Source of the DNA: a bacterium
GTDB taxonomy: Bacteria; CLD3; SB21
Direction: 5' to 3'
NCBI GenBank assembly: GCA_013360215.1
Contig: JABWCP010000005.1
Location: 62,001-126,000, forward strand
DNA length: 64,000 nt
The stretch's first letter is position 1; the number at the start of each line of letters is the position of its first letter. A program made the translations under genes and the position numbers. Positions 2,098 through 13,089 of this stretch are shown here, in pieces. The notes below the pieces were generated by a model. The model had not been told where the DNA came from, made no database searches, and worked only from the letters and a program-made list of their open reading frames with translations.

Positions 2098-4977
2098 ATG
2101 AAATCCACAATCGTATTTGTGTTGTTCTTGTCTTCCGTTTTATATGCTCAACGTACCGGTTGCGTGTCGGGCAACTGTGAAAACGGCGAAGGCACATACA
2201 TATGGAGTTCCGGCACTACGTATACAGGTGAATGGAAAAACGGCAAACAACACGGAAAGGGTAAAACGACATGGAGCGATGGCGAGTGGTACGAAGGGGG
2301 GTACAACATGGGAGAACGTACAGGATGGGGGGAATTTCGATGGAAAGATAAAACCTGGTATCGCGGTAGATTTTTGAATGGCCGCATGAATGGTTATGGA
2401 GAATATCATTTTGCATCCGGAACCACATATACCGGACAAATTCGTTTAGGAAAATTTAGCGGCGTTGGCACAAAATTGAAAAACGATGGCACCCGCGAAA
2501 TCGGATTTTGGAAGAATGATACTTATATGGGTTCACAGCGCCCTGTTTTGGTCGTATCATCACAAGGCCCTATAAAAAGCATTCAGGCTGCGATTGATTC
2601 GGCCACAGCCGGGGATGAAATCCTTATACGACGCGGCACATATAATGAGGCTATAGTAATCGACGGAAAAGAAAACATCACTATTCGCGGTGAAGGCGAA
2701 GCATGGTTGAAAGTTCCAACCGGCGACATCATTACCATCCGAAACTCTTCCGGGATCGCATTATTTAACATCAAAGGAATTCACGATACGCGCGATGAAT
2801 ATTTTGCCTGCGAAACTTCGGATGTGTTGGATATTGTACATTCCAAAAATATCATCGTTGCCCAATGTTTATTAGACGGATCCGGACAGATAGGACTCAC
2901 GGGATACCATGTTGAAGGATTATTGGTGAGCCATACGATCGTACAGAACTGTATTTTCGGAGGCATAGTCCTCGAAAACTGCGCCAATACAACATTACAA
3001 TACAATCTGATCATCGCACAAAAAGCCGCCGTAGACAAAGGCATGGATTGTATCGGTTTATCGCTTGTCTCTTGTAAAAATGCCGTCGTCAATCACAATA
3101 CGGTCGCCAAACTCATTGATTTTAATCCGGTATGGATTCGCGATTCGGAATCTATACTTTTCACCAATAACATCATAAGCCACAATACACTTAACGCCGA
3201 AAATCAGAGCGGCTTGATGCTCGGCGAAAATCAAACTTTAGATTATCACCGAAATCTCCTTTGGGATAATAAAACCCGGGACGGCAAGGAGATTAATTAT
3301 GATGCGTATGCTAAATCGTTTAAACCCCTAGATGACATAAATACCGACCCCTTATTTTTAAATCCTCAATCCAAACAGTTTGGTCTCAAGGCTTCATCGG
3401 GTGCGATAAATCAAGCAACGGACGGACTGGATATCGGCGCTGTCCAAACCAAACATCGCGGCAACCTGACGCCTAAAATCGCCGATCAAACGCCACCGCT
3501 AATAGTGTGGTCTGGGCAAAATTTTACAGATAAACAAAACATCACATTGCCGGACAGTACGATAAAATTTTCCGGACGACTGACGGATAACACGGAATTA
3601 GCAGGCATGATCATTGGCAATAAAACTGTATCTTTAAAAACGGACGGAACTTTTAATTCGGAAATCGCTTTAGAAGATGACATGGGCATGATACCTGTAC
3701 GCGCATGGGATATCTTTGGAAACGCGACCTACCTTGATATATTTTATCAAAAAGCATCAACACCTACGGCATCCGTCCAAACCGGAAGTGTGCCTCAAAC
3801 TATAACCGCAAGCCGGCCTACAACTTCTTCATCGGCAGTAAAACCTTCTTCCGCCGCACCCAATACTTCGACCGTAACTGTAACCTCCGATTGCAAAACT
3901 TCGGATGAATGCATTGAGCGTTCGTTTAAAGCGCAATCCATCGAAGAAGCTGTTTTATACGCCGAAAGTGCCGTACGCCTTTTAAAACCGACTGATGAAG
4001 AGGTAACTCAAAAAATGGCATATCGTATTCGCGCTGAAACATACTTGTATCAATTCAAAAAAAGTAACGATGCGGCGCTTGTCGAAAAAATCGAAGCGGA
4101 TTTTGAAAAAGCCATCAAGTTAGACCCTCAGGACGGTGTGCCGTATATAGGACTCGCAAAACTCTATGAAGCACAAAGCCAAGAATTGATGGTTGAAGAT
4201 CAGTTTGCACGCGGGCTGCAAGCCAATGCCAGTCCTGCGCTATTATATTATGAGCGTTCCCAATATTATATACGACAAAAAAAAGAATCGGCGGCTGATG
4301 AAGACTTAGACAAAGCCATAGAAATGCTGGGCGGAACTTCATATAAAGACGGTGTATATAAGATAACCGCCGGCGATCCTTCCGTCACCGACAAGGGAAA
4401 ATTTAACATGTATTATACCCGCGCCGAACGCCTTGTAAAAAAGAAAGATTATCAACGCGCGTATGCGGACTTGTCGCAGGCGATCAAGTTTGATCCTGAG
4501 AATAGCAATGCGTATTGGCTGCGTGCAAAAATCACCATTGATGTCGATCCCTACTACAAAAAACCGGAGCCGGCGCTGGCCGATCTCAATAAAGTGATCG
4601 AACTTTCACCGGATTTCGCCGACGCCTATTACTGGAAAGGCCAAGTGTTGCTGGCCAATTCACAAACCTATAAGGATCACAACATAACCATACAAACACT
4701 GATCAAGGCTTCCGAACTGGAACCGACTTTTTCGGATGGGTATGCCTATGCAGCGCACCTCTGTCTTGTGCAAGAACGTAATGCCGAAGCCGAGCAGTTT
4801 GCCTTTCTGGCCGTACAAAAAACTGATAAGAAAAACGCATTGGGCTTGGCACACTATGTCTTAGGATATACATACTCGTATAAGCGTGATCGTGAGAACA
4901 TGCTCAAGCATTTCCGAAAATCCGTCGAATATGGGTATGAAGAATCACAAAATGTTCTAAAAAGCATGGGGTATTAG
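2098..4977 (+). CDS. Exported MORN / beta-helix / TPR protein
   Basis: A 959-residue exported protein. Residues 1-18 are a signal peptide ending in YAQ. About 28-140 hold four to five MORN-type repeats (G-x-G-x-Y-x-W/F ... Y-x-G-x-W/F). About 150-430 resemble a right-handed parallel beta-helix (pectate-lyase/NosD type), opening with an IQAAIDSA...GDEILIRRGTY block and many N-N-x-I repeats. A low-complexity Ser/Thr/Pro linker near 555-600 leads to a C-terminal TPR array (about 610-959). MORN and TPR units usually mediate binding, and beta-helices often bind or cleave polysaccharide; no catalytic residues are evident. The next gene, another exported multidomain protein, starts 14 bases after its stop, so the two are probably co-transcribed. 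Function unknown. Confidence 0.8.
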   Translation: MKSTIVFVLFLSSVLYAQRTGCVSGNCENGEGTYIWSSGTTYTGEWKNGKQHGKGKTTWSDGEWYEGGYNMGERTGWGEFRWKDKTWYRGRFLNGRMNGYGEYHFASGTTYTGQIRLGKFSGVGTKLKNDGTREIGFWKNDTYMGSQRPVLVVSSQGPIKSIQAAIDSATAGDEILIRRGTYNEAIVIDGKENITIRGEGEAWLKVPTGDIITIRNSSGIALFNIKGIHDTRDEYFACETSDVLDIVHSKNIIVAQCLLDGSGQIGLTGYHVEGLLVSHTIVQNCIFGGIVLENCANTTLQYNLIIAQKAAVDKGMDCIGLSLVSCKNAVVNHNTVAKLIDFNPVWIRDSESILFTNNIISHNTLNAENQSGLMLGENQTLDYHRNLLWDNKTRDGKEINYDAYAKSFKPLDDINTDPLFLNPQSKQFGLKASSGAINQATDGLDIGAVQTKHRGNLTPKIADQTPPLIVWSGQNFTDKQNITLPDSTIKFSGRLTDNTELAGMIIGNKTVSLKTDGTFNSEIALEDDMGMIPVRAWDIFGNATYLDIFYQKASTPTASVQTGSVPQTITASRPTTSSSAVKPSSAAPNTSTVTVTSDCKTSDECIERSFKAQSIEEAVLYAESAVRLLKPTDEEVTQKMAYRIRAETYLYQFKKSNDAALVEKIEADFEKAIKLDPQDGVPYIGLAKLYEAQSQELMVEDQFARGLQANASPALLYYERSQYYIRQKKESAADEDLDKAIEMLGGTSYKDGVYKITAGDPSVTDKGKFNMYYTRAERLVKKKDYQRAYADLSQAIKFDPENSNAYWLRAKITIDVDPYYKKPEPALADLNKVIELSPDFADAYYWKGQVLLANSQTYKDHNITIQTLIKASELEPTFSDGYAYAAHLCLVQERNAEAEQFAFLAVQKTDKKNALGLAHYVLGYTYSYKRDRENMLKHFRKSVEYGYEESQNVLKSMGY

Positions 4978-4991
4978 TTAAGGTGTTTATT

Positions 4992-7900
4992 ATGAGCCGA
5001 TCATTTTTTCTTTTGAGTACAGGTTTAACCTTGGTTTGTTTTTCATTGTATGCACAAAATCTGTCGATCGAGCCACAGCTACAACCACCCGGAGGTGTCG
5101 GAGATATTGTATACAGCCCTGACGGTAAGTGGGTGGCGATAGGCGGGGCGGAGCTTCATTTGATGCATATCCCCTCTCAAAAGACAATGATGCTGACGCA
5201 TCACAAAAAAAACGTATTAGATTTCAACTTCAGCGCGGACGGGCATTATTTGGTTTCGAGCAACCCCGACGGCAATATCTACATCTGGGATATGAAAAAA
5301 GCGGCTCATATAACCACGCTGACGGATACGGCTATTGCCCAAAAAGTCCGTTTCACTCAGGATGGCCGTCATATCATCACTTGCGGACATTGGGGGATCC
5401 AGTTTTGGGATTGGTCTCTTCAAAAAATCACCAAAACATATACGCTCATAAAACCCGAGGAGTGGTCGGAATTCAGTCGTCGAGGAAGCTGCATAATGCA
5501 AGAACATTATGCGATCAGTCCGGATGGTCAATGGGCGGCGGCGGCGGGTGGCGGTTCGTGTTGGGAATTTACGTCCACACCGGAATACGGTTCCAACGTT
5601 AAAATGCCTCGATATTTTGATCTCAGTTTTTTCAGGGTTATTAATCTAGAAACCGGCGAGGCGCTTGATCAAATTCGTATCCCGAAAGAAATCAATTGGA
5701 ATGCTTTATCCCTCGGCAATAAAAAAATAGCCGTATCAGGTGAATTTCGTAAAGATGAAGCTTTAAAATACTCGATCCTTGTTTATAATCTTGAAACGCA
5801 AAGCATGTCTCGTCAATTGGATGCCGATACTAATCGCATCATCAATTTGACGCTGTCACCCGATGAAACAAAACTTGTGGGTGTTTCTTTGGTTGTCCGC
5901 GGGCTATTATCTGATAGAGGTAAGGTGTTTCTTTGGGATCTTACGAGGTCAAAACTCATCGGCGCCAACAAAATGGCCAGCCGAAAAGTTCATTTTTCAG
6001 CTGACGGGACATTAATGAGCAGCGGGTTTGAAACTTATCTGATTACGGCTCCCGTTCGATCGTTTCCAACAGGTATTTATATTACAGGAAGCGATTTTTC
6101 ATCAAACGTATATCATTTTGATCTAGATGAAAATAACGCACGCATCGTTTTTTCGGATCGCGAACAAGTGAGGACGTGGGATCTTCGACGCGGTGTGATT
6201 GAAAGAAATTTTATCGGTGAAAAAGATCAGACCATTCGAGGAGTCGGATTTACATCAAGAGGCCTCATTGCGGCCGGCTTCCGGGGTACCATTACGCATT
6301 GGGATTCATCAGGTGCCACTAAGCTGGTTACGATGCAACATCCTGTACTCAATCTAAAAAACGTTACACGCATCAATGATTCCGTATATGCATCCTATGG
6401 GGTCGGCATCCCGAGCCTCAACATGGATACTATTCGTTTTTGGAATATCAATAACGGTTCCTTACAACATTTTATAACTGCGCATTATGGCCAGTGCAAC
6501 GGATTACGTCTATCACCCGACAAAAAACTTTGGGTTTCTTTTGGCGGAGAGGAAAAAAATTCACCCAGCGGATCGGTTTGCGTGTGGGATGCGGTGACAT
6601 GGGAAAAGAAATACGATCATCACATAGGTGATAAAACCGTCGCCGTTATTCAGGCATTGCTCTATCCTGATAATAAAACAGCCGTGCTTGCTACCGACGA
6701 CGCCGAAAGATTAGTGATAAACTTAGAAACCGGAGTGATTAATCGTCGCATGAACGACAGCGGCAACTATGCTGTCACCATGGAATTGTCGCCGGATGGA
6801 CGTACTTATGCTTGCGGCAACGGCGGACCGTGGTTATTGGGCAGCAAAGATCATGATATCCGTATCTACGATGCACAAACACACCGGTTACTGCGTGTAC
6901 TCAAAGGTCATACGAACAAAGTCGAAAAAATTCAATTTACGCACGACGGACAACGGCTTGTAAGTTGCAGTTATGATGGAACGATTCGGTTTTGGAATTT
7001 GACCGACCAAACCTATATATCACTGATCGGCATCTCGGAAGACACCTACGCCGTGTTTGCTCATGACGGCAACTACCTCACATCCAAGCGAGGTCGCGAC
7101 CTGGTTGCATTTCGGAGCGGCATGAAGATGATGACTTTTGATCAGTTTGATCTTGTGTACAATCGCCCCGATATTATTCTGAGCCGACTCGGATATACGT
7201 CATCCGAACATCTGGCTATTTATAAACAGGCGTACGAAAAACGTCGAGCTAAAAACCCGCCGGCATCGGCACAACTCATGTTACAAACCGATGCTCCCGA
7301 TCTTACTATACATACCGATGCACCGCCGGAGGTTTCATCGCCCGATATCACTTTGCATATCCGTGCCAAGGATAAGAATAATATCCTCAGTACACTTAAG
7401 CTAAAAATCAATGATGTGCCGCTATATGGTCGCTCCGGATTAGATCTCCGAAGTCGGAATAGCCCTACGTATGAGGCCGATATCCCCATAACACTTAGCC
7501 TAGGCAAAAACAGAATACAAGTTTGGGTAACCAACGCGGCAGGCACCGAATCGATTCCTGAAACATTTGAAACCACCGTCACCGGATCGGCCGATTCATC
7601 GGACGTGATTTTAGTTTCTGTAGGTATTGCAAATTACAAGAACAGTGATTATAACCTCACGTATTCACGCAAAGACGCTCAAGAAATATCCGCCGTATAT
7701 GAAGCCTTACAAAAAAAAACCGGCGGCGGTTTTGAAAAAATACTACTGCTTGACTCTGCAGCAACACGTGAATCCATCTTAAATATCCGTAAAAAACTTC
7801 TTACCACCAAACCCAATGATCGTGTTGTGCTTTTTTTTGCCGGTCACGGTTTACTGGACGCTAAAACCGATTGGTATTTTGCCACCTACGATACGGATTT

Positions 7901-8519
7901 TGACAACCCCGCCAAACGCGGCTTGGCGTACAGCGCGATCGAGGATATTCTGGATGGTATCCCTTCTCGCCGGCGTATCGTATTCATGGATGCGTGTCAT
8001 TCCGGTGAAGTGGATACGGATTCGCCGATGCCGACCGCCAATGCCGACCGATCGGCCGCAACAATGGCTCGCGGCATAAAGAAAAAAATCGGCGATGGTG
8101 AAACCGTAACACAAGTTGTGAGTACACGCGGTTTTTTTTCTAAAAAATCGAAAACAACCGGGTTGCAAAATTCTTTTGAGTTGATGCGTGAAATCTTCGC
8201 CGATTTGCAAAACAGTATAGGCGCTACCGTTATTAGTTCGGCCTCGGGTACGGAAGTCGCACTCGAAGGCGATGCATGGAAAAACGGAGTATTCACGTTC
8301 ACCATACTGCAGGGACTGGCCTACGGCAAAGCGGATCTAGATCATGACGGTACTATCCGGTGCACCGAACTCCAGGCGTACGTGATCGGAACCGTAAAAA
8401 AACTTACCGATGGCAAACAATCTCCGACGGCACGTAAAGAAAAAGCCTTTGATGATTTTGAAGTAACCCGTTTTTTATCACCGGTGGATCCTGCGGTGTG
8501 GCGTGTATCGGGTTACTAA
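4992..8519 (+). CDS. Exported WD40-repeat, caspase-like (C14) protein
   Basis: I choose ATG 4992 over GTG 4983 because AAGG at about 4980-4983 is then well spaced. That gives 1175 residues with a signal peptide ending in LYAQ. Residues of about 30-680 hold WD40-type repeats (SPDG, FSADG, IRFWNL), enough for one or two propellers. About 760-855 look Ig-like. The C-terminus (about 865-1170) is a caspase-family domain: the catalytic His is in FFAGHG (His952) and the Cys in MDACHSGE (Cys1002), so the dyad is intact. A GTEVALEG...NGVFT segment matches the late part of C14 domains. WD40-caspase fusions are usually cytoplasmic; export to the periplasm or beyond is the odd feature. It probably shares an operon with the preceding MORN protein. 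The substrate cannot be told. Confidence 0.85.
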   Translation: MSRSFFLLSTGLTLVCFSLYAQNLSIEPQLQPPGGVGDIVYSPDGKWVAIGGAELHLMHIPSQKTMMLTHHKKNVLDFNFSADGHYLVSSNPDGNIYIWDMKKAAHITTLTDTAIAQKVRFTQDGRHIITCGHWGIQFWDWSLQKITKTYTLIKPEEWSEFSRRGSCIMQEHYAISPDGQWAAAAGGGSCWEFTSTPEYGSNVKMPRYFDLSFFRVINLETGEALDQIRIPKEINWNALSLGNKKIAVSGEFRKDEALKYSILVYNLETQSMSRQLDADTNRIINLTLSPDETKLVGVSLVVRGLLSDRGKVFLWDLTRSKLIGANKMASRKVHFSADGTLMSSGFETYLITAPVRSFPTGIYITGSDFSSNVYHFDLDENNARIVFSDREQVRTWDLRRGVIERNFIGEKDQTIRGVGFTSRGLIAAGFRGTITHWDSSGATKLVTMQHPVLNLKNVTRINDSVYASYGVGIPSLNMDTIRFWNINNGSLQHFITAHYGQCNGLRLSPDKKLWVSFGGEEKNSPSGSVCVWDAVTWEKKYDHHIGDKTVAVIQALLYPDNKTAVLATDDAERLVINLETGVINRRMNDSGNYAVTMELSPDGRTYACGNGGPWLLGSKDHDIRIYDAQTHRLLRVLKGHTNKVEKIQFTHDGQRLVSCSYDGTIRFWNLTDQTYISLIGISEDTYAVFAHDGNYLTSKRGRDLVAFRSGMKMMTFDQFDLVYNRPDIILSRLGYTSSEHLAIYKQAYEKRRAKNPPASAQLMLQTDAPDLTIHTDAPPEVSSPDITLHIRAKDKNNILSTLKLKINDVPLYGRSGLDLRSRNSPTYEADIPITLSLGKNRIQVWVTNAAGTESIPETFETTVTGSADSSDVILVSVGIANYKNSDYNLTYSRKDAQEISAVYEALQKKTGGGFEKILLLDSAATRESILNIRKKLLTTKPNDRVVLFFAGHGLLDAKTDWYFATYDTDFDNPAKRGLAYSAIEDILDGIPSRRRIVFMDACHSGEVDTDSPMPTANADRSAATMARGIKKKIGDGETVTQVVSTRGFFSKKSKTTGLQNSFELMREIFADLQNSIGATVISSASGTEVALEGDAWKNGVFTFTILQGLAYGKADLDHDGTIRCTELQAYVIGTVKKLTDGKQSPTARKEKAFDDFEVTRFLSPVDPAVWRVSGY

Positions 8520-8647: not shown

Positions 8648-10321
8648 ATGAGCGACAATAAGATTATTTTTTCGATGGTCGGCGTGGGCAAAGTGCACAA
8701 GCCCAACAAACAAGTGCTCAAAGATATATATCTTTCTTTTTTTTACGGCGCCAAAATCGGCGTACTCGGTCTCAACGGCGCAGGTAAATCTACGCTGCTT
8801 CGTATCATCGCAGGAACCGACAAGGATTACCTCGGTGAAATCACAGCACAGAAAGGCATCCCCTTCGGTTATTTGCCGCAGGAACCGGAACTTGATCCGA
8901 ACAAAACGGTAAAAGAAATTGTCCAAGAAGCGGTTGCCGATACGGTAGCTTTGGTGCGTGAATACGAAAAAATAGCCGAACAAATGGCGGATCCCAATGC
9001 GGATTTTGATACACTTTTAGAAAAACAAGGTAAACTGCAGGAAGAAATCGAGCATAAAAACGCATGGGATCTTGACAGCCGCCTTGAAATGGCTATGGAC
9101 GCGCTGCGTTGTCCGGAAAGCGACACACCCGTCAAGGTTCTGTCCGGTGGCGAACGTCGCCGCGTCGCCTTGTGCCGCCTGCTTCTGCAGGAACCCGATG
9201 TGCTCTTGCTGGATGAACCGACCAACCACCTCGACGCCGAATCCGTGTATTGGCTGGAACAACATTTAGCTCAATACAAAGGCACTGTCATTGCTGTCAC
9301 CCACGATCGTTATTTCCTCGATAATGTCGCCGGTTGGATACTCGAACTCGATCGCGGCGAAGGTATTCCTTTCGAAGGCAATTATACCTCGTGGCTTGAA
9401 CAGAAAAAGAAGCGCCTTGAAGTCGAAGAAAAGCAGGAATCCAAACGCCAAAAAGCTTTGGCTGAAGAGTTGGAGTGGGTGCGAATGAATCCCAAAGGTC
9501 GCCACGCCAAAAGTAAAGCACGTATTTCGGCGTATGAAAAAATGGTCAATGAACAGAATGAAAAGCGTAACGAAGAAATGGAAATTTTCATTCCACCCGG
9601 ACCGCGCCTCGGCAATGTCGTCATCGAAGCAAACGGCGTTGGCAAATCCTACGATGATCATTTGCTTTATGAAAACATGAACTTTTCGCTGCCACCCGGC
9701 GGTATCATCGGCGTGATCGGACCCAACGGTGCGGGTAAAACCACATTATTCCGTATGATTACCGGTGGAGAAAAACCTGACGCCGGCTCGATTCGAATCG
9801 GCGAAACCGTCAAACTGGGGTATGTAGATCAAAATCGTCCACTGGATCCCAATAAATCGATTTGGGAAGAAATCAGCGGCGGCGAAGAAACGCTGATGCT
9901 GGGTACCCGTGAAGTCAATTCGCGTGCCTATGTAGCGCGATTTAACTTTAGCGGTTCGGACCAACAGAAAAAAGTCAGCATGTTATCCGGCGGCGAGCGC
10001 AACCGCGTTCACCTTGCCAAGATGCTCAAAGAAGGCGCCAATGTACTGCTACTTGACGAACCTACAAACGATCTGGATGTCAATACACTGCGCGCACTGG
10101 AAGAAGCGCTTCTGGAATTTGCCGGATGTGCCGTGGTGATTTCCCACGACCGTTGGTTTCTTGATCGTGTAGCGACGCATATCTTAGCATTCGAAGGCGA
10201 CAGCCAGGTAGTTTGGTTTGACGGAAATTTTTCGCAATATCACGAAAACTTCAAACAGCGCATGGGTATCGACGCCGATCGCCCGCACCGTATCAAGTAT
10301 AAACCGCTAATGCGCGGATAA
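8648..10321 (+). CDS. ettA: Energy-dependent translational throttle protein EttA
   Basis: An ABC-F protein of 557 residues, the family's usual length (E. coli EttA is 555). It has two complete ATPase cassettes with Walker A motifs GLNGAGKST and GPNGAGKTT, two LSGGE signatures and two LLLDEPTN Walker B motifs. Between them lies a charged helical linker (about 240-310), the family's P-site tRNA-interaction motif. There is no membrane domain. EttA binds the ribosomal E site and gates the first elongation step according to the ATP/ADP ratio. The match runs end to end, including the C-terminal R-I-K-Y-K motif. It is followed by a strong terminator and seems to be a single-gene unit. Confidence 0.95.
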   Translation: MSDNKIIFSMVGVGKVHKPNKQVLKDIYLSFFYGAKIGVLGLNGAGKSTLLRIIAGTDKDYLGEITAQKGIPFGYLPQEPELDPNKTVKEIVQEAVADTVALVREYEKIAEQMADPNADFDTLLEKQGKLQEEIEHKNAWDLDSRLEMAMDALRCPESDTPVKVLSGGERRRVALCRLLLQEPDVLLLDEPTNHLDAESVYWLEQHLAQYKGTVIAVTHDRYFLDNVAGWILELDRGEGIPFEGNYTSWLEQKKKRLEVEEKQESKRQKALAEELEWVRMNPKGRHAKSKARISAYEKMVNEQNEKRNEEMEIFIPPGPRLGNVVIEANGVGKSYDDHLLYENMNFSLPPGGIIGVIGPNGAGKTTLFRMITGGEKPDAGSIRIGETVKLGYVDQNRPLDPNKSIWEEISGGEETLMLGTREVNSRAYVARFNFSGSDQQKKVSMLSGGERNRVHLAKMLKEGANVLLLDEPTNDLDVNTLRALEEALLEFAGCAVVISHDRWFLDRVATHILAFEGDSQVVWFDGNFSQYHENFKQRMGIDADRPHRIKYKPLMRG

Positions 10322-10620: not shown

Positions 10621-13089
10621 ATGAAAAACCTTACAAAAAAACTAATTCTTACATCGCTGATGGCTCTCATGGCTTTCAGTTCCGCCTTCGGGCAAAACGG
10701 TACTTTACGGGCAAAGTTCGTGAAAAGTACTGATGGTTCGCCGGTAACGGATGCGACATTTTCCGCCGTATTGGCCTCAAATAATCAAAGTTACGGTGTA
10801 CGGACGCCAAATGCTCAGGGTGAAATGGAGTGGTCATTACCGCCTGGAAACTATTACGTAAAACGGCAAACAGGAAACTATGTTGCCACCAACTCAGTTA
10901 CGGTTACCTTATTAGCAGGGGAGACAAATTCAACACTCGTGACCAATCCTACATCTCTTACCCCGCTCGCCTTTTTACGCGCTAAATTCGTGAAAAGCAC
11001 AGATGGTACGCCAGTAACCGATGCAACATTTACCGCAGTATTAACCTCCAACAATCAAAACCAAGGTACGCGCACACCAAATGCTCAAGGTGAAATGGAG
11101 TGGGCATTACCTCCAGGAAATTATTATGTAAAGCTTCTAACAGGATACTACGTTGCTACTAATTCTGTTACAGTTACTTTAGTTGCCGGAGAAACTAATT
11201 CTTCGCTCGTAACCAACCCCACTTCTTTGACCCCGAGTACCATCTTACGCGCTAAATTCGTGAAGACCACCGATGGTACGCCGGTAACCGATGCGACATT
11301 TACTGCAGTATCAACCTCTAATAATCAAAACCAAGGTACACGTACCCCAAATTCTCAAGGCGAAATGGAGTGGGTATTAGCTCCTGGAAATTATTATGTA
11401 AAATTACTAACAGGTAACTACGTTGCAGCCAACTCTGTTACGGTTACTTTAGCCAACGGTGAAACTAATTCTACTCTTGTAACCAATCCGACCCAAATAG
11501 TTCCTAAATCTATAATCAGAGCCAAATTCATTAACAGTCATGACGGAAGCCCAATAACAGACGCAACTTTTCGTTTTTTTGATCAAAACGGCAATTATTA
11601 TACAGCACAAACGCCTGACGCCAACGGAATTATCGAGTCAATGGTTTCACCGGCCAATTTTCGTGTGCAGTTACATTCAGGTCTTTATGTTGCATACACC
11701 AGCGGGTCCATTACCGTCGAGCCGGGAACCACAAATACCGCCTTTGTCGATACGGCACGTGTTCTTACCCCTCTGGGCGTCAAAGCGCATTTTGTCAACT
11801 CCAACAATACTGCAGTGATTAGCGGAAAAACCGTCAAAATCACAGATGGTTCTAATAATACAGTGGCCACACAAAACACCAACGCCAATGGCGATGTGTT
11901 GATACAGCTTGCGCCCGGCTCATATACGATGAAAGCCTTTGATAACGACGTCAATTATCAAACTCAAAACATCCCTATCACCATTACGAGCAGCGCTCTC
12001 TTGGATAAAGGCACCATTAATATGGCGCAAAATGTCTTCGCCCTTTCTTTTGACGGTGTCGGCGATTACGTGGATGCAGGCAATGATGCAAGTCTTGGAA
12101 CGGTTACGTCGGCTATTACTATTGAGACATGGATACTGCGAAAAACCGGAGGAAGCAATAGCCAACACGTCATCAGCAAAGGTGGCGGCTGGGGCAATAC
12201 CGGATTCAATCTGCACTTTTATTCTACAGGCGGAGAGCCCAACATGCTGCGTTTTGAAGTAAGAGGTAGTGGTGCTCTTATTTGGGATTTTTACAATGTT
12301 GTCACTAATATCGGTTATGATCAATGGCACCATTTAGCGGTAGTTTGGGATAAAAACACAATGCCAGCTCCTAAGGTAATTATTGATGGCACACTTGTGT
12401 ACAATGCCAGCGGGGATTACACAGGCACTATTAACGCAAGCTCATATAATCTATTTATCGGGCGTAACAGCGGGATCAACGGAGGCGATTTTAAAGGTAA
12501 TCTTGATGAAGTTCGCCTGTGGAATGTCGCTCGCACGCAAGCGGAAATTCAAGCTTCAATGAGCACTCATCTGTCTGGTTCTGAGTCCGGTCTGTTAGCT
12601 TATTATAAAACCGACGAAGGTACCGGATCTCTGATCAACGACATTGCCGGAGCTAATAGCCAGGGCGCTTTGATGGGAAATACGTCTTGGTTATCCACGA
12701 CCTTCCCCCATATCTCAGGCACCATGACAAAAATTTTGGCCGGCATTTTTTATGAATCAGCCTACACGGACACTACGGGCGAAATGAAAAAAGACTTGAG
12801 TACGATTCCTATGGAATTTGGCTTAGAATCCAACTTCCCCAATCCGTTTAACCCGACGACGACGTTGCGTTATGCGCTCAAAGAAGATGTGCGCGTCAGT
12901 CTGAAGGTATACAATCTTCTTGGTCAGGAAGTGCGTAACCTCGTCAATGAGTATCAGTCAGCCGGGTTCAAAAATGTGCTTTGGGATGGCAAAAACAATC
13001 AAGGCAAACAAGTACCGAGCGGTGTCTATATTTACCGACTTGAAGCCGGTAGCTTTAAAATGTCCAAGAAAATGAATCTTATTAAGTAG
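10621..13089 (+). CDS. Secreted tandem-repeat / LamG protein with T9SS-like sorting tail
   Basis: An 822-residue secreted or cell-surface protein. A signal peptide (about 1-25, ending in AFGQ) leads into four tandem modules of about 90 residues (L-R-A-K-F-V-K-x-T-D-G ...), three close copies and one diverged, plus a fifth shortened module. These are Ig/carboxypeptidase-regulatory-like beta domains. About 470-690 form a LamG/concanavalin-like domain (FDGVGDYVDAG, W-x-H-L-A-V-V, GNLDEVRLWN). The last 80 residues are an FlgD-Ig-like, T9SS type A-like sorting domain, with NFPNPFNPTT and ending in a basic KMSKKMNLIK. The protein should leave the cell through type IX secretion and bind glycan or another ligand. 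The start is fixed by GAGGAG about 9 bases upstream. It has its own terminator, so it is monocistronic. Confidence 0.88.
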   Translation: MKNLTKKLILTSLMALMAFSSAFGQNGTLRAKFVKSTDGSPVTDATFSAVLASNNQSYGVRTPNAQGEMEWSLPPGNYYVKRQTGNYVATNSVTVTLLAGETNSTLVTNPTSLTPLAFLRAKFVKSTDGTPVTDATFTAVLTSNNQNQGTRTPNAQGEMEWALPPGNYYVKLLTGYYVATNSVTVTLVAGETNSSLVTNPTSLTPSTILRAKFVKTTDGTPVTDATFTAVSTSNNQNQGTRTPNSQGEMEWVLAPGNYYVKLLTGNYVAANSVTVTLANGETNSTLVTNPTQIVPKSIIRAKFINSHDGSPITDATFRFFDQNGNYYTAQTPDANGIIESMVSPANFRVQLHSGLYVAYTSGSITVEPGTTNTAFVDTARVLTPLGVKAHFVNSNNTAVISGKTVKITDGSNNTVATQNTNANGDVLIQLAPGSYTMKAFDNDVNYQTQNIPITITSSALLDKGTINMAQNVFALSFDGVGDYVDAGNDASLGTVTSAITIETWILRKTGGSNSQHVISKGGGWGNTGFNLHFYSTGGEPNMLRFEVRGSGALIWDFYNVVTNIGYDQWHHLAVVWDKNTMPAPKVIIDGTLVYNASGDYTGTINASSYNLFIGRNSGINGGDFKGNLDEVRLWNVARTQAEIQASMSTHLSGSESGLLAYYKTDEGTGSLINDIAGANSQGALMGNTSWLSTTFPHISGTMTKILAGIFYESAYTDTTGEMKKDLSTIPMEFGLESNFPNPFNPTTTLRYALKEDVRVSLKVYNLLGQEVRNLVNEYQSAGFKNVLWDGKNNQGKQVPSGVYIYRLEAGSFKMSKKMNLIK
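10705..11784 (+). repeat. Tandem 270-bp in-frame coding repeats
   Basis: Units begin at 10705, 10975 and 11245 with an exact 270-base period, and a diverged fourth begins at 11515. Copies two and three differ largely at synonymous positions. They lie wholly inside the LamG surface-protein gene and encode its 90-residue modules, so they are recombination-prone coding repeats and not a CRISPR or mobile element. Confidence 0.9.

Follow-up and report, generated by a model that had tools for sequence, protein, structure and literature searches.

Do two adjacent genes of a bacterial contig, one for a MORN/beta-helix/TPR protein and the other for a WD40-caspase, act together outside the cytoplasm, or are they neighbours by chance? 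We addressed this question in a 64,000-nucleotide stretch of contig JABWCP010000005.1 (assembly GCA_013360215.1), hereafter the window, whose coordinates 1-64,000 are used throughout. The gene of the MORN protein (P1) occupies 2098-4977 on the forward strand (959 amino acids) and that of the WD40-caspase (P2) follows at 4992-8519 on the same strand (1175 amino acids from the ATG at 4992, with an alternative GTG start at 4983). P2 belongs to a widespread and known kind of WD40-caspase, apparently exported, and the P1 protein encoded beside it is a repeat protein of unusual make-up that is predicted to be exported as well. An unexpected feature is a conserved EF-hand-like helix-loop-helix at the end of the caspase domains of the P2 group. 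The reading that would join these elements, P2 as an exported, Arg/Lys-cleaving caspase with a Ca2+ loop and P1 as its scaffold or substrate, has in our estimate a probability of roughly 0.4.

Layout, architecture and predicted export of P1 and P2

Both open reading frames (ORFs) are intact and co-directional, and 14 bases (4978-4991, forward strand) separate the stop codon of P1 from the ATG of P2, as a previous reading of this DNA from its letters alone (the sequence-only reading) had claimed. No terminator-like site was found on the forward strand between the genes, which fits a common operon; P1 and P2 are probably one transcription unit. The guanine-plus-cytosine fractions of P1 (0.442) and P2 (0.459), set against that of the window (0.456), give no sign of recent transfer.

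P1 starts with a predicted signal peptide (residues 1-17, cleavage after ...SVLYA/Q), followed by the motif CVSGNCENGEGTY (residues 22-34; 2161-2199, forward strand), whose form, CxxGxCxxGxG, is common to exported MORN-caspase fusions found elsewhere. MORN repeats come next (residues ~36-140; Pfam MORN 47.6 bits, cut-off 22.5), then a right-handed beta-helix or NosD-like region (residues ~160-450; Pfam Beta_helix 26.1, barely above its cut-off of 25.9), a Thr/Ser/Pro-rich linker containing few Arg/Lys (residues ~556-600) and TPRs (residues ~640-950; several Pfam TPR models above cut-off). By eye, residues ~461-571 are possibly immunoglobulin (Ig)-like, a reading that no library confirmed; they had no match to the Ig-like region of P2, so that an Ig-like domain common to the two proteins is unsupported. 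Folding P1 from its single sequence gave a mean predicted local distance difference test (pLDDT) of 35 and was of no use.

Signal peptides were called with a strict rule devised for this analysis and controlled on segments starting at internal methionines; it replaced a first rule that was too unspecific, passing 71/85 caspases but also 177/361 neighbour ORFs. The strict rule was passed by P1 and by P2 (cleavage after ...FSLYA/Q), in line with the signal peptides that the sequence-only reading had assigned to both products, and both are therefore probable export substrates. That reading had also taken most bacterial WD40-caspases to be cytoplasmic, which did not hold among the relatives of P2, sampled as 79 loci from the best 80 of 242 relatives in one scan. 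The rule was passed by 55 of 88 ORFs longer than 600 amino acids (P2 included) vs 14 of 1760 internal-methionine segments, implying that exported WD40-caspases are common in this group, and both other C14 proteins of the P2 genome passed it too. Some relatives that fail look exported by eye, and 133/361 neighbour ORFs also pass, many of them possibly genuine export substrates. Passages of PMC3501461 mention N-terminal helices, possibly signal peptides, in prokaryotic caspase homologs. The type IX C-terminal sorting domain (TIGR04183) gave no NCBIfam match in P1 or P2 at E 0.01, in a scan that does detect it in the nearby protein 10621-13089; PF18962, another sorting domain, was absent from P1 and from the 25 of 40 Pfam families listed for P2.

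The P2 caspase domain and its EF-hand-like end

P2 combines WD40 repeats with a Peptidase_C14 domain (44.2 bits, cut-off 21.4). Between them, directly ahead of the caspase, an AlphaFold2 (AF2) model and profile matches place an Ig/fibronectin type III (FnIII)-like beta-sandwich (residues ~765-873; 7284-7610, forward strand), the profiles matched being 3pe9, a fibronectin(III)-like module, and 3pdd, an entry of glycoside hydrolase family 9. The caspase domain itself spans residues ~875-1149 (7614-8438, forward strand) and, numbered from the ATG start, keeps its dyad of H952 (codon 7845) and C1002 (codon 7995), as had been claimed from the letters; both residues, together with the Asp before the Cys (D1000), are invariant in 112/112 aligned domains. 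That alignment comprises 107 matching ORFs, less seven with short matches, plus 12 other sequences. The AF2 model of residues 765-1175, built on a 50-sequence alignment, reached a pLDDT of 86.4. Its best Foldseek matches were MALT1 (E 5e-11) and the bacterial GSU0716, and it superposed on metacaspase 4 with a Z of 23.4 (238 residues at 3.3 A) over model positions 106-401, past the p20 part. The modelled fold of P2 is thus that of a caspase. D1000 is presumably the acidic S1 residue behind the Arg/Lys preference of metacaspases, and such a residue would predict cleavage after Arg or Lys by P2. PMC5756287 describes this preference for non-metazoan C14 peptidases.

In the caspase domains, the last conserved strand is followed by the pattern D-x-[DNG]-x-D-x-x-[IV]-x-x-x-E. 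In P2 it corresponds to residues 1115-1126, DLDHDGTIRCTE (8334-8369, forward strand). The model flanks it with predicted helices at 336-346 and 360-374 and has a short strand at 357-359, an arrangement like that of an EF-hand. In the aligned columns (n=112), position 1 is D in 93/112 domains, position 5 is D or N in 101/112 and position 12 is E in 100/112; seven MORN-caspases that came from another search have the E in 7/7 and at position 1 a D in five and an N in two. A strict EF-hand pattern matched just 21/107, since many loops have a residue other than Gly at position 6 and some contain insertions. We consider the aligned columns the better measure, although insertions make them less exact at positions 3 and 4. 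Pfam EF-hand_1 appeared only below cut-off, in the relative at L069. The 79 loci were sampled with one seed pattern ([HN]G[VLA]FT...) that lies just ahead of the loop; hence the conservation of columns ~1098-1102 reflects the way the loci were picked, whereas the loop lies beyond the seed. Alignment and model together point to a putative Ca2+ loop, and P2 may depend on Ca2+. We found no report of such a loop in exported bacterial caspases in listings of the open-access literature; sections of PMC6426788 list EF-hand motifs in seven archaeal proteins.

Compared with known systems, P2 resembles the WD40-bearing prokaryotic caspase homologs described in excerpts of PMC3501461 in its C14 His-Cys dyad, its Asp before the Cys and its WD40 repeats, and differs from them in adding the Ig/FnIII-like spacer and the terminal EF-hand-like loop. 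The same excerpts name NACHT-WD40 forms, whereas the 25 Pfam families listed for P2, out of 40, include no NACHT. They also give WD40 in 10.9% of sequences and mention multi-caspase operons; in our sample, directly adjacent caspase genes occur in 10/79 loci. EACC1-associated caspases (NF047832) are the best NCBIfam match of the P2 caspase, but at 85.8 bits they stay below the cut-off of 140. P2 is one of three C14 proteins above cut-off in its genome. In the tree it falls among Bacteroidota sequences (a 14-row group with a Shimodaira-Hasegawa-like approximate likelihood ratio test (SH-aLRT) support of 91), apart from both genome paralogues and from the two included WD40-caspases of its family, a position that fits transfer or an old duplication. 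The bacterial caspase literature on which we drew consists mostly of work on cyanobacteria and architecture surveys; if the reading is true, a large exported group with an intact site and a probable Ca2+ loop would bring caspase-type proteolysis into the bacterial envelope.

Three further ORFs touch on these proteins. G000:C4:8266-8682 (L012) is 31% identical to the P2 caspase region and lies under the Peptidase_C14 cut-off, and two genes from the bacterial family to which the window belongs (L067:2938-5241 and L037:1289-3133) encode WD40 and Ig-like parts that end just before the caspase position, apparently as caspase-less paralogues.

A functional pairing weighed against chance adjacency

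The architecture, the intact dyad, the caspase fold, the loop conservation and the adjacency are established by computation; the mechanism that would tie them together runs as follows. In P2, a WD40 part would serve for sensing or docking and the Ig/FnIII-like region as spacer, and the C14 domain, ending in one EF-hand-like Ca2+ loop, would be the protease. After Sec export, Ca2+ in the envelope would hold the protease in register, and the WD40 propellers would recognise the envelope or surface protein to be cleaved. P1, encoded on one transcript with P2, would most likely be a docking scaffold or a substrate of P2: its MORN and beta-helix parts may anchor at the envelope while its TPRs touch P2, and its exposed Thr/Ser/Pro-rich linker, with its Arg/Lys, would be the likeliest cut site. 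This role of P1 is speculative, and the pair itself has little weight unless P1 is bound or cut by P2. An extracytoplasmic proteolytic or cell-fate system, as the sequence-only reading put it, is possible.

Two observations keep a link between P1 and P2 plausible. Firstly, no MORN matches were detected in the genome outside P1, and the P1 gene immediately precedes one of the three C14 genes, a co-directional order with an estimated chance of ~0.001 (for ~3,200 genes). Secondly, MORN and C14 recur in one exported polypeptide in other genomes. The best Bacteroidota MORN matches of P1 are often exported MORN-caspase fusions, with Peptidase_C14 above cut-off in 7/10 scanned; in a second scanned set, 2/10 proteins were such fusions, again with Peptidase_C14 above cut-off. 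A candidate eighth fusion, L184, had no Peptidase_C14 match and only a sub-cut-off Peptidase_C13. A MORN census found 20 MORN ORFs in 13/148 genomes, 5/20 with Peptidase_C14 above cut-off, a figure centred on one genome (G013) itself chosen through earlier matches and becoming 3/17 in 12 genomes without it. Such MORN-metacaspase fusions were already published (PMC4933709, Table 1). Like P1, those we found (L168, L170, L171, L179, L180, L181 twice, L187 and L203) have an exported MORN part of the CxxGxC form, there joined to C14 in one polypeptide with no WD40 match, whereas the window encodes MORN and caspase in separate proteins.

Several results stand against the joint reading. Three sets yielded no full-length relative of P1: nine genomes of the phylum, 22 genomes that carry WD40-caspase relatives (derived from 23/79 loci) and 395 Bacteroidota. 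At E 1e-10 only the window's own genome matched among the nine; at E 1e-3 all nine did, the other eight only with TPR or beta-helix pieces. Ten of the 22 genomes matched at E 1e-6, all through MORN (2-147) or TPR (768-939) residues, and ten of the 395 Bacteroidota at E 1e-14, all inside residues 2-170, in a search that scored two candidates per genome and may miss weaker full-length relatives. None of the 79 P2-relative loci holds a P1-like gene: no ORF there has two MORN-motif matches, and the sole BLAST match of P1 is a TPR protein in L129. Neither C14 paralogue of P2 in the genome has a MORN neighbour, no caspase gene flanks an unfused MORN gene in 20 loci (0/20; ~8 kb per side where the contig allows), and the adjacency estimate is post hoc. 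The fusion caspases (seven in the tree) form their own clade, separate from P2, so a fusion is not the direct split form of this pair. On the calcium side, the C26 paralogue of the genome lacks the loop in the alignment, and control by Ca2+, which the conserved loop predicts, would be at odds with the calcium-independence that PMC5756287 ascribes to orthocaspases, with their lack of p10 given as a possible reason.

For the sets searched, a conserved P1-P2 two-gene system is rejected: the co-occurrence of the two architectures that the sequence-only reading had named as a check is absent from every one of them. Of the two outcomes that would have counted against that reading, missing co-occurrence was thus observed for the pair and failing signal-peptide predictions were not. 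What survives of its interpretation is the predicted export of both proteins, the intact caspase, the probable co-transcription and, for Ca2+ dependence, a foundation in the sequence; the unusual nature of an exported WD40-caspase and the conserved pairing do not. Chance adjacency, in which the genome has several independent exported WD40-caspases, P2 among them, and P1 is an unrelated exported repeat protein that happens to be co-transcribed with P2, accounts for the missing co-occurrence, for the C14 paralogues without a MORN neighbour, for the 0/20 unfused MORN loci and for the assorted other neighbours of close P2 relatives, but it leaves as coincidences the recurrent exported fusions and the place of the genome's only MORN gene, immediately ahead of a C14 gene when there are just three of these. 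We hold it for a serious contender, somewhat short of an even bet; functional pairing and chance adjacency are about equally likely. Descent of the pair from MORN-caspase fusions by gene splitting is unsupported by the tree. It seems unlikely, too, that WD40- and MORN-linked caspases make up one broad exported group controlled by envelope Ca2+ through the C-terminal helix-loop-helix, with the window as a split form in which MORN would act in trans as the envelope-docking subunit.

TPR and beta-helix are common interaction modules, and the gene order and predicted co-export would also suit P1 as an inhibitor or zymogen clamp of P2, freed by Ca2+ or cleavage, in a switch for envelope-driven lysis. 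MaOC1, which is reported to cut an antitoxin (PMC7935541), shows that C14 proteases of prokaryotes are able to target what an adjacent gene encodes. No toxin-like or pore-forming partner is seen beside the pair, and P1 matched no PADLOC model; we consider a clamp a long shot. We regard as similarly improbable a general role for P2 as an exported protease, in nutrition or in the turnover of surface proteins, with P1 binding carbohydrates or surfaces separately from it. Carbohydrate-active proteins commonly have a beta-helix fold, but Pfam and NCBIfam scans gave no carbohydrate-active domain match in P1, and high specificity is usual for C14 proteases. For bacterial metacaspases, a role in degrading extracellular proteins has been put forward (PMC4933709).

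Related loci and neighbouring genes

Two Bacteroidota proteins (L196, L205) resemble P1 in joining TPR and MORN in one protein with a signal-peptide-like N-terminus (by eye), and are unlike it in placing TPR mostly before MORN, in having no beta-helix match and in lacking a caspase neighbour. Among P2 relatives, nine loci (L092, L095, L102, L109, L114, L120, L126, L133 and L140), mostly from Cyclobacteriaceae and relatives and with the match at ~10001 or 8829, have a CdaA-type cyclic di-AMP (c-di-AMP) cyclase gene directly upstream of the exported WD40-caspase; the cyclase of L126 was assigned from Pfam DAC and CdaA_N, and the other eight from 80-98% identity to it. Related exported proteins of ~600-660 amino acids follow P2-type caspases with an overlap of a few bases at L070:11311-13116, L074:11299-13107 and L084:745-2733; they have no Pfam match and look by eye like outer-membrane barrels. 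In a Sphingobacterium locus, a second exported protein whose N-terminus is caspase-like by eye (L085:5604-7643) is encoded directly upstream of the WD40-caspase.

Within the window, the gene at 28-1689 on the reverse strand encodes a 553-amino-acid probable lipoprotein (by eye) with no Pfam or NCBIfam match. The protein at 10621-13089 has four CarboxypepD_reg stretches, a Laminin_G_3 domain and the type IX secretion sorting domain. Between P2 and that gene lies an ABC-F gene (8648-10321; EttA-like by eye); a 65% identical one follows the WD40-caspase gene of another locus (L101:9197-10774), the two ABC-F-linked caspases belonging to different clades.

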